Shown here piece by piece: positions 8,300-18,039 of a stretch of 25,331 bases of DNA. The position numbers were made by a program, and so were the translations under genes. Location of the stretch: the NCBI GenBank assembly GCA_030753015.1, contig JASMDC010000042.1, positions 1 to 25,331 on the forward strand, in the 5' to 3' direction. The notes beneath the pieces are model-generated. The model was not told where the DNA came from. It saw only the letters and a program-made list of their open reading frames with translations, and searched no databases. The DNA comes from Candidatus Undinarchaeales archaeon (GTDB taxonomy: Archaea > SpSt-1190 > JASMDC01). Numbering within the stretch: the stretch's first letter is position 1; each line of letters opens with the position of its first letter.

Positions 8300-8632
8300 C
8301 TAGAACCCGAAGCCCAGTCCCAGCTCGCCGTCCGAGTCGATGACGAGACCGGGAGCTACCTCGATACCGATCCCCCCGCCATAGGTCATGCCGATACCGG
8401 GACCGTCCCACCCGTCGTCGCCCTCAACGGGCGCTGTGTTGTTGGTGGCGGGAGCCTGGTACTCACCGGGCTCGGCGGTGGCCCCGTAGTAGATGGCTGC
8501 TCCTACCCCGGCGACTGCAAGGCCACCGATACCGATCATGGCCCATTCCATGCCCTCAAGGTCGTTGGTGGTTGAGTAGCCCGCTGCAGCGTCAGCCTGT
8601 GCGTACTCGATGGTGTCGAGCTCGATGTCCAT
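8300..8632 (-). CDS. Small membrane-anchored glycine-rich protein, paralogue 1
   Basis: 110 residues: an acidic N-terminal part (MDIELDTIEYAQADAAAGYS), one hydrophobic helix (WAMIGIGGLAVAGVGAAIYY), a linker EPGEYQAPATNNT, and a glycine-rich C-terminus ending in DGELGLGFGF. The next gene encodes a paralogue of identical length and plan. I start at the ATG at 8632 because the paralogue aligns exactly there and the TATA box (8667-8672) lies at a matching distance; an upstream in-frame ATG at 8770 lies within the neighbouring coding region. The acidic N-terminus, single helix and Asn/Thr/Pro-containing linker fit an N-in membrane protein with an exposed glycine-rich tail. Function unknown. Confidence 0.75.
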   Translation of the reverse strand: MDIELDTIEYAQADAAAGYSTTNDLEGMEWAMIGIGGLAVAGVGAAIYYGATAEPGEYQAPATNNTAPVEGDDGWDGPGIGMTYGGGIGIEVAPGLVIDSDGELGLGFGF

Positions 8633-8666
8633 GATCGTCACTGAGGCTCTGGGCACGACCGCCGGT

Positions 8667-8679
8667 TTATAACTCTTAC
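8667..8679 (-). promoter_or_regulatory. TATA/BRE-like element, GTAAnnnTTATAA type (paralogue 1)
   Basis: GTAAGAGTTATAA on the minus strand, 10 of 13 bases identical to the elements at 9109-9121 and 16906-16918. Predicted transcription start near 8640 leaves a leader of about 8 nt before the ATG at 8632. Confidence 0.5.
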
Positions 8680-8741
8680 TGAGAGCGTTGCCGTCTCTAC
8701 TGGGAAAGAAGTACCCCGTCCCGGAATCCTTTCCCCTTTTC

Positions 8742-9074
8742 CTAGAAGCCGAAGCCCAGGCCCAGTTCACCGTCGAAGGTGTAGACTACACCGGGAGCGA
8801 TCTCGAGGCCAAGGTCACCGCCGTAGCTCATACCCAGGCCGATACCGTCCGAACCGCTGTCCTGGTACCCCGCACCGGTGTCGTTCGTGACAGGCGCTTG
8901 ATACTCGCCGGGCTCGGCGGTGGCCGCACAGTAGATGGCAGCACCGATACCGGCCGTCGCCAACGCCCCTACGCCTATCATCGCCCAGTCGGCGCCGTCC
9001 AGGTCGTCAGCTGTGGAATAGTCGGAGGTCGCCTCGGCATGAGCGTACTCGATAGTGTCAAGTGCCATGTCCAT
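8742..9074 (-). CDS. Small membrane-anchored glycine-rich protein, paralogue 2
   Basis: 110 residues with the same order of parts as its downstream neighbour: MDMALDTIEYAHAEA start, hydrophobic helix (WAMIGVGALATAGIGAAIY), the linker AEPGEYQAP, and a C-terminus ending in the identical DGELGLGFGF. Identity is highest in the N-terminus, helix, linker and final ten residues; the centre (DSGSDGIGLGMSYGGD) is looser. The ATG at 9074 matches the paralogue; the ATG at 9080 is also possible, while the in-frame ATG at 9098 lies only about 11 bp from the TATA box (9109-9116) and is too close to be used. One Cys sits at the end of the membrane helix. Probably a tandem duplication; each copy has its own promoter. 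Confidence 0.75.
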   Translation of the reverse strand: MDMALDTIEYAHAEATSDYSTADDLDGADWAMIGVGALATAGIGAAIYCAATAEPGEYQAPVTNDTGAGYQDSGSDGIGLGMSYGGDLGLEIAPGVVYTFDGELGLGFGF

Positions 9075-14177: not shown

Positions 14178-14999
14178 CTATTCCTCAGGGGCTCCGAAGG
14201 CGACCATGCGGCAGAGCGAGCTCTCGAGCTCCATACCCTTGAGCGGCATGCAACCGATCCAGCATCGCTTGTTGGACAGCTTCTCGATGTCGCCGCCCAA
14301 GTTCTCCGCGTGGACGAGCTTCAGGGGGAAGAGCTTGAGGTGCATTACCTGATAGTACTCCTCCAGGGGGAACATTACGTCCCATTCCTTCCCGTAGTTC
14401 TTCTTGAGCTTGGCCTCGGCCTCCGCAAAGAGCTTGGGATGCCAGTCGCGGATGATCGTGTTCATGGGGTGGTCGGCGGACCCGCAGTCAACGCCGATCC
14501 ACTTGAGCTTCATCTTGAGTGCCCACTTGTGGAACTCCGGGTTCGGACCGGGATGCTTGACGAAGTAGCGGACCTCGTCGCTCTCGGGCTCGTACCAGGC
14601 GTACCGGTGGTAACCGGTATTGATGACCAGGATGTCGCCCTTGCGGATATCGGCTCGCTCGGTGAGCATCTCGGGTGAGTAGAGGTCGTAGTCCCCCACT
14701 TCCCCGGAGATGTCGACGACGACGCCGGGACCCACCCACTCCTCCAGAGGGACCTGGCCGATGGTCCGGCCGCTGCCGTGGAAGTGGATCTCCCCGTCCA
14801 TGTGGGTGCCCACGTGGTTGGATGTCTTGATGATCTGGCCGTTGGCGCCCTGCCCCATATGGGCACCGGCGATGCGCTTGAAGTACTGGACCTGTAGCGG
14901 CATGTAGCTGGGCCACGGTGGCGTGTGCACGCTCAGCGGCTGGGTAAGGTCGTACATCTTCACTTTGCTCATGAACTCTAGGAACTCGTTCGCGTCCAT
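14178..14999 (-). CDS. Cyclase-family metal-dependent hydrolase (kynurenine formamidase-like)
   Basis: 273 residues of the cyclase family (KynB, isatin hydrolase and relatives), which hydrolyse amide or lactam bonds using metal ions. The metal motif HxGTHxDxxxHF is intact in SNHVGTHMDGEIHFHGSG, the N-terminal MYDLTQPLSVHTPPWP carries the conserved DLTxPL start, and VDCGSADHPMN gives the second histidine region. It is longer than bacterial KynB (about 210) because of an insert around 180-235. First gene of the hydroxylase cluster: TATA-like CCTTTTATTG at 15090-15081 upstream, then a leader of about 60 nt and a GGGGTGA site before ATG 14999. With the adjacent hydroxylase, it suggests ring oxidation and hydrolysis of an N-heterocyclic compound, which is inference. 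Confidence 0.88.
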   Translation of the reverse strand: MDANEFLEFMSKVKMYDLTQPLSVHTPPWPSYMPLQVQYFKRIAGAHMGQGANGQIIKTSNHVGTHMDGEIHFHGSGRTIGQVPLEEWVGPGVVVDISGEVGDYDLYSPEMLTERADIRKGDILVINTGYHRYAWYEPESDEVRYFVKHPGPNPEFHKWALKMKLKWIGVDCGSADHPMNTIIRDWHPKLFAEAEAKLKKNYGKEWDVMFPLEEYYQVMHLKLFPLKLVHAENLGGDIEKLSNKRCWIGCMPLKGMELESSLCRMVAFGAPEE

Positions 15000-15080
15000 C
15001 GATTTTCACCCCGTTCCACAAGTCCCCCTCCCGGATGGCGGTCCGGCGTCAAGGGGACACCGACCACGACCTGCCCAATC

Positions 15081-15090
15081 AATAAAAGGG
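15081..15090. promoter_or_regulatory. TATA-like element between the cyclase and DUF5591 genes
   Basis: CAATAAAAGG on plus, CCTTTTATTG on minus, the only A/T-rich core in this 130-bp divergent gap. It would give a leader of about 18 nt for the plus gene and about 60 nt for the minus cluster. A weaker TTATAG is at 15141-15146. Confidence 0.4.
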
Positions 15091-15129
15091 CTTCGGTCGG
15101 TGGTCGATGTGCCCGCTGGGGAAAGGTTG

Positions 15130-15795
15130 ATGAACCTTTCTTATAGAGGGTGGCCTGTGATCATCCCTCCCGACGAACGCTCATCCCAACCGCTCGAGGG
15201 ACCGGCCGTGCTAACGCATCCCGATATGGAGCGGGCCTGGCGGCATATCGTCGAGGAGTACGAACCACCCCGGCGCGAGTATTGCATCCTCCTCACATGC
15301 TCCATGCGCAGGCCGTATCACGAGAGCCCCTCACATCGGATCTACGACCAGATAATCTTCTCCGTGCTCCCCCGCGAGAAGGTCCATCTCGTCGTGTTCG
15401 GGACCTGCGGTGTGGTGCCCAGGGAGCTGGACGGTGAGTACCCGTTCATGAACTACCGGTTCATGCTGGGGAAGTCCGATCCATCCGTCAAGCGCGCCTT
15501 CGTCCCCCATGAGGCGATGCGGCTCGCAGCCTACCTCGAGCGCAATCGGGACCATTACGAACATATCGTCGCTTATGCTATCGGGGTGTTCCGCGAGGCC
15601 GTCATGCTCGCGAGCGAGATGACGGGTATCCCCATCAAGTTGCTCCCCAACGACGACACGATAACCGCGCTCACGGACCCCTCCCGTCGTTTCCCCGCAG
15701 GCAGTCTCATGGCACAAGAGTACCTGCAGGACCTCGCGGACGCTCTTGCAGATATGGAAGGAGTACCCCGAAAAGAGGCGGTCTTCGAACGCTGA
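15130..15795 (+). CDS. Stand-alone DUF5591 protein related to archaeosine synthase (ArcS)
   Basis: 221 residues. LLTCSMRRPYHESPSH (54-69) fits Cys-x3-Arg-Pro-Tyr-x2-Ser-x2-His, close to the PC-x3-KPY-x2-S-x2-H motif of ArcS, the amidinotransferase that converts preQ0 at tRNA position 15 to archaeosine. The downstream GTCGVVPRELDGEYPFMNYRF agrees with the xVPRELExxYPxxxYD part of DUF5591. Two catalytic-motif positions differ (Pro to Thr, Lys to Arg). The TGT-like N-terminal and the PUA domains of full ArcS are absent, so it is a split or paralogous enzyme; the substrate may not be tRNA-bound preQ0. The ATG at 15130 is chosen with a TATA-like site at 15081-15090; the frame is open to 14923, so the start is moderately certain. 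It converges with the next gene, leaving 1 bp. Confidence 0.75.
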   Translation: MNLSYRGWPVIIPPDERSSQPLEGPAVLTHPDMERAWRHIVEEYEPPRREYCILLTCSMRRPYHESPSHRIYDQIIFSVLPREKVHLVVFGTCGVVPRELDGEYPFMNYRFMLGKSDPSVKRAFVPHEAMRLAAYLERNRDHYEHIVAYAIGVFREAVMLASEMTGIPIKLLPNDDTITALTDPSRRFPAGSLMAQEYLQDLADALADMEGVPRKEAVFER

Positions 15796-15796
15796 C

Positions 15797-16879
15797 CTAG
15801 TGGATGGGTAGGAGGGTGGCGACACCTGCGATAAGGACTGCTTTCTCCACGTCGTACTTGAACCGCTCGTTCACGGCCTCCGTGTAAAGATCCGGTTCAT
15901 AGTCGCCCTTGATCTTCTGCCAGATGCGGCGACCGCAGTTACCCACCATGTCCTGAATGTGCACGTGATGAAGGTCGTCGACGTCCACACGCCCCTCAGT
16001 GTAATCCTCGAGGAAGTTGTTGCCGCTCGTGTGCTCGTACTTGAGAGCTTTGAGGGCGATATCGTTGGATTCAGTGGGGAGGGTGCCGATGTACTTCCCG
16101 GCGGCACGTATGTCGTCGGTCGTGCTCAGCGCCCTGAGAGTGGATGTGGGGCCCACCTTCCGTCCGTCAACAGCCCGCATTGCGTACGCCTCGTCAAGGA
16201 ACCGGACCGTCATGATGGTGGCCATCTCCTTCGATAGCTTTGGTGAGATGCTGATCTTATATGCGGAACCGTCAGTACTGACCCCGAGGGACCCGAACTC
16301 CTTCCAGCCAAGGCTGTCGCTGCTGAACTCCAGGTCAACGTTGTCCAGGAGCTCGAGGTCCTGGTCGTCCCAGTAGTCCGAGCTCTTCATGCGGTCGATG
16401 GCGCTTCTGTACACGTCCGCAGCGTCGTTCTCTCCAAGGTCCTTGTGATGGAACTTGCCCTCGCGATTGTAGAGGTCGATGTTGTGCTTCGTGAATGGGA
16501 TGGGGATATACCCGCCAACGAGCACATCGGTACCAAGGAGCCGTGCCAGCCTGCTCCCCGCGCCCTTCCGCTCCTGGGGCTTGAGTGATTTGAGGTCCAC
16601 GTTACCGATATAGCAGCCGATGGTGTCGGAGTTGGACCCGTCGATCGTGTCCATCTCGTTCTCGCCTATGTGCTCGATGACATAGGTGGTCCCTATTTGG
16701 GCGCTAACCTTGGCACTGTAATGGTACACCGCGTCCATGGCTGAAGCCCCGACCTTGGGCATCTCGTGAAAAAAGTTAGCAGTGGCGTAACCGGCGGCGA
16801 GGCCCACGCCAGCAGCGATCCCGTCCGAGATGTACTCGCGGTTGGGGATCCGCTCCGAGGACACCGTAAGGTATTCCAT
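15797..16879 (-). CDS. 360-residue protein of unknown function
   Basis: I do not recognise a family. Near the N-terminus (19-37) is a hydrophobic, glycine/alanine-rich segment (GIAAGVGLAAGYATANFF), a possible membrane helix or glycine-rich turn. The rest is a soluble-looking mixed protein with many Asp/Ser residues, an HxHK-like cluster (KFHHKDLGEND), and a paired His in DDLHHVHIQDM near residue 310, which could bind metal. It ends with another hydrophobic stretch (AVLIAGVATLLPIH). The ATG at 16879 is about 30 bp from the TATA box (16906-16913), so the mRNA is leaderless. Single gene, convergent with the ArcS-like gene. Its promoter element is identical to that of a 110-residue paralogue at 9109-9121. 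Confidence 0.7.
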   Translation of the reverse strand: MEYLTVSSERIPNREYISDGIAAGVGLAAGYATANFFHEMPKVGASAMDAVYHYSAKVSAQIGTTYVIEHIGENEMDTIDGSNSDTIGCYIGNVDLKSLKPQERKGAGSRLARLLGTDVLVGGYIPIPFTKHNIDLYNREGKFHHKDLGENDAADVYRSAIDRMKSSDYWDDQDLELLDNVDLEFSSDSLGWKEFGSLGVSTDGSAYKISISPKLSKEMATIMTVRFLDEAYAMRAVDGRKVGPTSTLRALSTTDDIRAAGKYIGTLPTESNDIALKALKYEHTSGNNFLEDYTEGRVDVDDLHHVHIQDMVGNCGRRIWQKIKGDYEPDLYTEAVNERFKYDVEKAVLIAGVATLLPIH

Positions 16880-16918: not shown

Positions 16919-16953
16919 CCCGGGGTAGTAACAGAACGTGAAGTGGATCGCGA

Positions 16954-17121
16954 CTAGAACCGTTCGGCATAGTACGAGTGCTGGTCGCTAACGCTGGCGT
17001 TCCAGATCTTGTACGCCATGAGGAGGAAGAAGGGCAGACCACCGATCATAAAGCCCTTGAAGATGTTCCCGCCAGAGATGCCGCGCCAGGCGATCTCATT
17101 CGACACCTCATGATAGCTCAT
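16954..17121 (-). CDS. 55-residue single-pass membrane protein
   Basis: Too short for most gene callers. Starting from ATG 17121 it reads MSYHEVSNEIAWRGISGG, a hydrophobic helix around residues 22-38 (KGFMIGGLPFFLLMAYK), then IWNASVSDQHSYYAERF. Support comes from a CATAAAAG TATA box at 17147-17154, about 29 bp upstream, giving leaderless mRNA, and from a protein-like composition with one clear membrane segment and polar ends. It is divergent from the sulfite-oxidase-like gene and shares its promoter core, so it may be a membrane partner or anchor for that enzyme (inference). No family recognised. Confidence 0.6.
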   Translation of the reverse strand: MSYHEVSNEIAWRGISGGNIFKGFMIGGLPFFLLMAYKIWNASVSDQHSYYAERF

Positions 17122-17146
17122 GGTGAGAGTGAATATTGGACTTATT

Positions 17147-17155
17147 CTTTTATGG
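17147..17155. promoter_or_regulatory. Shared TATA-like core for the divergent membrane-protein and molybdoenzyme genes
   Basis: CTTTTATGG on plus, CCATAAAAG on minus. It lies about 26 bp before ATG 17176 on plus and about 29 bp before ATG 17121 on minus, so one A/T core probably serves both leaderless genes. Confidence 0.5.
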
Positions 17156-17175
17156 ATTACCTCTCAATCCACCGA

Positions 17176-18039
17176 ATGATGGCCGAAGAAACCACCGATA
17201 CGACCGGAGATGAAGTGGAGGTCATCGACAGGAGGACGTTGCTCAACCGACTGGCCGCTCTAGGTATCGGACTGGTCGGGCTTCGGCTCCTCAGTGACGG
17301 GCAGCTGCTGCGCGTTCTCCAGAGCGCCGAGCGGGAGCCCGAGGTGGCTTCAGCTCTATCAAAGAACAGTGGTGATCGTGTGGTGGTCTCAAAGGGAAAC
17401 GCAACCGACCTGGATCCGAACGCCTCGCCCGAGGCGATACCTGCCGTGGGGGAGCTCGTCATCAGCCCCGACACTCGGCGGGACAACCGCGTACCGCCCG
17501 GCCAGCGCCTGACGACAGGGTTCCCGATCACAGGTGCCGGTCCTATCCACCGCATCGATCCGGGCCACTGGACCTTCTCGATCACTGGGCTCGTAGAGGA
17601 AGAACGAGAGCTCCCCTTCAAGGAGTTCGTTTCCCTCGAGCATGTCAAGGTGCTCTCGGACATCCATTGTGTCACGACATGGTCACGATTGGACAACGTG
17701 TGGGAAGGTATCTCCACGCGGGCGATCAAGGACCTCATCGACATACGGCCAGAAGCCCGTTTCGTCATGGTCCATGCGGCAGGCGGGTTCAGTGCGAACT
17801 TGCCACTGGAGGACTTCTTCGAAGAGGACGTGCTGTTCGCCATCAAGCACAACGATAAGGAGCTGACCCCCGAGCACGGCTACCCCGTCCGCCTCGTCGT
17901 GCCACGGCTGTACTTCTGGAAGAGCGCCAAGTGGGTCACGGGTATCGAGTTCATAGCGGAGAACAAGCCCGGCTACTGGGAATCGCTCGGCTACCACATC
18001 CGCGGGGATCCCTGGAAAGAGGAGCGGTACAGTGGATAG
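17176..18039 (+). CDS. Sulfite oxidase-family molybdopterin oxidoreductase
   Basis: Molybdenum enzyme of the sulfite oxidase/MsrP fold, 287 residues. The catalytic cysteine that ligates molybdenum is in SDIHCVTTWSRLDNVWEGI; KSAKWVTGIEFI and GYWESLGYHIRGDPWKEE are conserved C-terminal cofactor-binding blocks. There is no haem or dimerisation domain, as in the MsrP-like single-domain enzymes, which reduce sulfoxides. The N-terminus (IDRRTLLNRLAALGIGLVGL) resembles a twin-arginine signal, RRTLL plus hydrophobic helix, so export or membrane tethering is likely. Start 17176 (or 17179) fits the TATA core at 17147-17155 with about 26 bp spacing; an in-frame ATG at 17152 overlaps that core. Substrate and electron partner unknown; the divergent 55-residue membrane protein is a candidate partner. 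Confidence 0.87.
   Translation: MMAEETTDTTGDEVEVIDRRTLLNRLAALGIGLVGLRLLSDGQLLRVLQSAEREPEVASALSKNSGDRVVVSKGNATDLDPNASPEAIPAVGELVISPDTRRDNRVPPGQRLTTGFPITGAGPIHRIDPGHWTFSITGLVEEERELPFKEFVSLEHVKVLSDIHCVTTWSRLDNVWEGISTRAIKDLIDIRPEARFVMVHAAGGFSANLPLEDFFEEDVLFAIKHNDKELTPEHGYPVRLVVPRLYFWKSAKWVTGIEFIAENKPGYWESLGYHIRGDPWKEERYSG

Follow-up and report, generated by a model that had tools for sequence, protein, structure and literature searches.

The window, that is, the whole stretch of 25,331 nucleotides analysed here, carries two adjoining minus-strand genes whose products, proteins A and B, are both 110 residues long and end in the same ten residues. An earlier note read this conserved C-terminus as a likely recognition or assembly signal. 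The locus raises the question of which part of the two proteins behaves as such a signal, and on how many other proteins of the genome that part is found.

Results

The gene pair in the window

The features of the two genes, all on the minus strand, are as follows.

8303 to 8632, minus: tagged protein A (P0001), 110 aa; stop codon at 8300-8302
8745 to 9074, minus: tagged protein B (P0002), 110 aa; stop codon at 8742-8744
8555 to 8632, minus: N-terminal head of A, MDIELDTIEYAQADAAAGYSTTNDLE; head-profile match, E 2.8e-11
8997 to 9074, minus: N-terminal head of B, MDMALDTIEYAHAEATSDYSTADDLD; head-profile match, E 1.6e-8
8486 to 8545, minus: Gly/Ala-rich hydrophobic helix of A, residues 30-49; hydropathy 2.04 over 17 residues
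8928 to 8987, minus: Gly/Ala-rich hydrophobic helix of B, residues 30-49; hydropathy 1.88 over 17 residues
8450 to 8473, minus: linker EPGEYQAP of A, from the A/B alignment
8892 to 8915, minus: linker EPGEYQAP of B, from the A/B alignment
8303 to 8332, minus: last ten residues of A, DGELGLGFGF, common only to A and B
8745 to 8774, minus: last ten residues of B, DGELGLGFGF
8666 to 8672, minus: TTATAAA as read on that strand, the TATA-like box of gene A; 34-40 bases upstream of the start codon
9109 to 9115, minus: TTTATAA as read on that strand, the TATA-like box of gene B; 35-41 bases upstream of the start codon

The two genes are tandem paralogues, as the earlier note had it: both are minus-strand ORFs, and their products align without gaps over 110 aa each at 65% identity. 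The alignment also bears out the parts that were described, namely an acidic head, one hydrophobic helix, the EPGEYQAP linker and an identical last decapeptide. Each ATG is preceded by its own TATA-like box about 40 bases 5', which makes both start codons credible. Synonymous divergence between the genes is near saturation (dS 1.3) and dN is 0.24, indicating that the copies are old and maintained. Thus, the conservation of the tail is no artefact of a fresh duplication; it is a comparison of two sequences. Selection had been proposed for the head, the helix and the terminus. The proposal holds well for the head and helix, the long parts under the strongest constraint (dN/dS about 0.1), and less well for the Gly-rich tail of residues 77-110 (about 0.3). 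Residues 62-76 form the least constrained stretch. The linker contains no amino-acid change, and the final ten codons differ by four synonymous and no non-synonymous changes. No described family matched the head or A/B in searches of Pfam (25 of the 26 tagged proteins introduced below, without L017), NCBIfam, PHROGs, PADLOC and PDB sequences, in agreement with the note's remark that the family was unfamiliar.

The C-terminal decapeptide was rejected as a family mark, because a search of the genome with the C-terminal halves of A and B returned just the two window genes (next best E = 0.13). The motif therefore has two copies in this genome, both in a tandem duplicate, and the same search did not find it on the other 24 tagged proteins. 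A tail common to A and B alone does not qualify as the invariant recognition signal of a protein family. The decapeptide could still be a recognition or assembly signal of the pair itself, a role compatible with an N-terminal tag, and it is identical in both proteins with codon changes that are synonymous only, alternates Gly with hydrophobic residues and closes on Phe. We consider this improbable, since the decapeptide is absent from every other genome protein visible to the search, the evidence comes from n = 2 tandem duplicates, and the AlphaFold model built from the two-sequence A/B alignment has a mean pLDDT of 35. The Gly-rich tails are the cargo part of the A/B pair. By eye, the tails (8303-8404 and 8745-8846, minus), with Gly alternating with hydrophobic residues and a Phe end, resemble the last strand of an outer-membrane barrel.

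An N-terminal module on 26 proteins

The element of recognition type lies at the opposite end from the one that the earlier note stressed: it is the head at the N-terminus, which 26 proteins carry in front of about 18 different groups of cargo. The first sign of this came from a search of the genome with protein B, in which further matches were limited to its first half. A profile of six N-termini then yielded 19 additional members at E < 0.06 and a twentieth at 0.22. The profile of head plus helix (25 rows, 24 members and one artificial consensus row) and the profile of the head only (26 real rows) returned the identical 26 proteins, spread over 18 of the 117 contigs of the 3.85-Mb genome. 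With the 25-row profile nothing else fell below E = 0.08; with the head-only profile the weakest member scored E 5e-6 and the next match about 1.2-1.3. A and B thus share the head with 24 further, mostly unrelated proteins. The module stands at the extreme N-terminus in 26 of 26, though the six-frame searches could match anywhere. Since the profiles include their own matches, each member was retested by leave-one-out, with all sequences at 50% or more identity to it removed from the training set. All 26 were recovered, at E from 7.5e-5 (L030) to 6.5e-14, and each placed among the 26 best of the 4,349 ORFs of the surrounding regions. The count comprises the matches that passed the search's initial filter, and highly diverged members may be missed.

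Most tagged genes have their own TATA-like box, indicating that they do not form one operon. The genome is a bin with an estimated contamination of 5%; contamination as the cause of the set was rejected, the tagged regions being similar in G+C (0.58-0.63) with mostly TATA-type promoters. Beside the tagged genes, no family recurs beyond a few scattered ordinary ones, and no candidate for a partner, receptor or scaffold was found there.

The head is about 27 residues long and begins at the initiator Met or a few residues after it, often as MY. It is strongly acidic with few basic residues, and the charge balance flanking the helix is not decisive for the topology. Sequences representing each cargo group once (n = 18), aligned with the end of the head as anchor, give the motif D-L-E-[TS]-x-G-Y-[GA]-x-A-x-A-A-[DE]-G-Y-x-x-x-[DE]-D-L, whose spacing is fixed in most members. 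Among these representatives the Asp before the final Leu is invariant, the final position is Leu or Met, and the two Tyr, nine residues apart, are kept in 12 (first) and 15 (second) of 18. In the 26 heads (8997-9074 minus, for example), Y, A, A and Y occupy every third position (Y-x2-A-x2-A-x2-Y) between two D-L pairs. The helix that follows is rich in Gly, Ala, Val and Leu and spans about 17-20 residues; L026 and L027 have only a weak first helix. Against within-sequence shuffles of the 18 representatives, the column score reached 46.6 SD for the head, 14.5 SD for the spacer and helix, and 0.5 SD for the 20 residues after the helix. Conservation therefore extends to letters and spacing in the head and mainly to composition in the helix, and it is absent from the sequence past the helix.

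This pattern bears on whether the head has any special function, or whether a single gene start was spread by duplication and fusion, with the head conserved by descent only. Several tandem duplicates occur among the tagged genes (the A/B pair on C54, a pair on C45 and four genes on C29) and the set is confined to one genome, as spread by descent would predict. However, heads from different cargo groups have diverged widely and yet keep the spaced residues, next to a helix kept mainly in composition, and the A/B head has a dN/dS of about 0.1 at near-saturated synonymous sites. Descent without function is thus very unlikely.

Cargo behind the module

Five cargo proteins have a transglutaminase core (L019, L028, L029, L033 and, below the cut-off, L031). 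Two of the five, L019 and L029, combine DxDxDG thrombospondin-3-like repeats with C93/LapG-type similarity. The tagged genes L069:7117-8166 and 14756-16015 (C41), 6.6 kb apart, encode DxDxDG repeats and a C93/transglutaminase-like domain; the LapG model was matched by 2 of the 26 members, probably these two C41 proteins. In L020 and L022 the cargo consists of FG-GAP repeats in one and a DUF4347-like domain in the other, each placed directly behind an LSGC at the end of the helix. L013 carries LURP-one/scramblase-like cargo. On C29 (L066:5824-12201), four tandem tagged genes encode proteins with lengths of about 470-560 aa; these contain degenerate repeats (SRSDAVNIMNVVDQYEDVGG-like) and show weak similarity to phage tape-measure and minor tail models. 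What remains are small proteins that lack known domains, and a second hydrophobic segment occurs in several of them. Across the set, several two-helix members (L023, L027 and L028) end in a K/R-containing tail.

The same genome also has untagged transglutaminase-like proteins, with ordinary signal peptides (L128 and L130) or other membrane segments and no head. Their presence suggests that the tag marks a subset of envelope proteins. In an all-against-all comparison, the window ORF 16942-18039 and L076:5201-6463 (C106) matched each other. The latter is a plain lipoprotein-like ORF without a head, whose signal peptide ends in LVAGC. The former has an RR-containing hydrophobic segment (DRRTLLNRLAALGIGLVG) inside the frame, and given this segment the real start codon of the ORF may be further downstream than the listed GTG.

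Distribution of the module

No tagged member was found in nine other genomes of the phylum, where the single match (E 0.006) covers the helix only, nor in 394 archaeal genomes or two further phyla; together, the genome searches covered about 530 different archaeal genomes. Phage and plasmid records held no relatives of the head. Pattern scans of GTDB r220 contigs and IMG/VR gave no relatives either, which is weak evidence given that an exact match to a degenerate peptide was required. Weak full-protein matches in G050 and G053 were rejected because they lie inside or opposite unrelated genes. Within the searched sample, the module is thus restricted to this genome, and conservation of the head is known from it alone.

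At 3.85 Mb, the genome compares with 0.6-1.1 Mb in nine other genomes of the phylum and class. Its EF-2 is 52-56% identical to that of its own phylum and up to 59% to that of Woesearchaeota and other archaea. This is either an unusually large DPANN-affine genome or one whose placement is uncertain. An EF-2 about equally distant from its own phylum and from others indicates an isolated lineage, and this isolation may be why no relatives were found.

Discussion

A proposed export or sorting signal

Conserved letters ahead of a hydrophobic segment, on many different cargos, are the anatomy of an extended targeting signal. We therefore propose, with a probability of roughly 0.55, that the module is a lineage-specific extended N-terminal export or sorting signal that is read in the cytoplasm, a function inferred from its anatomy. 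The head would be recognised in the cytoplasm by a dedicated, putative receptor, which would bring the following hydrophobic segment to the membrane; the cargo would end up outside, with the helix as an uncleaved anchor. In the case of L020 and L022, with their LSGC lipobox, the cargo would instead be held by lipid after removal of the head and helix.

The orientation depends largely on the cargo. A position of the cargo outside the cell, and hence of the head inside, is favoured by the FG-GAP repeats, the thrombospondin-3-like repeats and the LSGC lipoboxes. The reverse arrangement, in which an outward-facing acidic head serves as an external recognition tag and the cargo is cytoplasmic, would suit the positive-inside rule, because the head has few basic residues. 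It is nevertheless improbable, as those cargo features place the cargo outside and the two-helix members with basic tails fit a head inside.

A head inside the cell could also be retained there as a docking or assembly tag, with the anchored proteins binding a scaffold or clustering in a membrane domain or internal compartment. This alternative is not likely, though it is the one we take most seriously. In most members the helix looks uncleaved and a lipobox is missing, the K/R-containing tails of L023, L027 and L028 are consistent with both ends being inside, and the fixed spacing of Tyr and Ala suggests a binding surface. On the other hand, no scaffold candidate lies near the tagged genes, and the head would be lost from the two members that combine surface-type cargo with an LSGC straight after the helix. 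If LSGC is used, conservation of the head in L020 and L022 must reflect a role before cleavage, and such a role favours the cytoplasmic sorting signal over a permanent docking tag.

Several observations count against the sorting signal. The neighbourhoods of the tagged genes share no recurring partner or receptor gene, and no second tagged genome was found. The head is acidic, unlike the n-regions of normal signal peptides, with a flanking charge balance that leaves the topology unfixed. The first helices of L026 and L027 are weak. A canonical lipobox ends the helix in just two members, and about 9% of shuffles give two or more members a loose lipobox pattern. The LURP-one/scramblase-like and repeat-protein cargo could be cytoplasmic.

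A more specific version of the sorting signal is somewhat less probable than its opposite: a dedicated DPANN-affine pathway in which an acidic two-tyrosine tag (DL...Y...Y...DL) would direct a varied set of at least 26 proteins to a special site in the membrane or at the surface through a receptor of its own, unrelated to known signal-peptide classes. Apart from the Sec, Tat, lipobox and pilin signals, no N-terminal sorting tag with conserved letters is known to us from archaea, and to our knowledge protein targeting in uncultured DPANN-type archaea has been little explored. A dedicated receptor pathway, if demonstrated, would make this a categorically new kind of signal. The tag on 26 proteins provides a ready list of a putatively co-sorted set, including transglutaminase/LapG-like enzymes, calcium-type repeats and lipoproteins. 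The motif is clear enough for mutation and offers a route to finding its receptor, and the head is a concrete search marker for new genomes of the lineage.

Comparison with known signal classes

The N-termini were compared with the established archaeal signals. The set does not fit Tat signals: RR before the helix is absent in 25 of the 26 and present only in L029. The acidic heads, with no consistent [KR]G site in the 26 N-termini examined by eye, do not fit archaeal type IV pilin (class III) signals. LSGC, of a lipobox type that has been studied in Haloferax (PMC2945643), is the only lipobox (L-[AST]-[GA]-C) at the end of a helix, and it is confined to L020 and L022. These two of 26 resemble archaeal lipobox (class II) signal peptides, whereas the other 24, A and B among them, have no canonical lipobox, and the plain lipoprotein-like L076:5201-6463 has no head. 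A scan of all 26 members against NCBIfam revealed no shared signal family.

The module has in common with known extended signals a conserved N-terminal segment shared by unrelated cargo. In Gram-positive bacteria, the YSIRK/G-S motif (PF04650) likewise consists of conserved letters in the N-terminal signal region of many surface proteins with differing cargo, and in the proteins that bear it the motif is associated with specialised secretion at the septum (PMC12445088). YSIRK, however, stands at the start of the hydrophobic core, whereas the head described here is acidic and precedes the core by as much as about 30 residues. The host is an archaeon, no sortase-type tail was seen, no PF04650 match was found in 25 of the 26 members (all but L017), and none of the 26 heads contains the YSIRK letters. 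The ESPR (PF13018) of autotransporters and two-partner secretion proteins is a long N-terminal extension before the hydrophobic segment of the signal sequence (PMC2805444), and the module is similar in this respect. It differs in being acidic and archaeal, and its cargo lacks autotransporter or two-partner secretion domains; the Pfam scan of 25 of the 26 members gave no match to PF13018 or to such domains. The acidic, archaeal head is thus unrelated in sequence to YSIRK and ESPR; if the proposed role is right, it would in outline act like such extensions.
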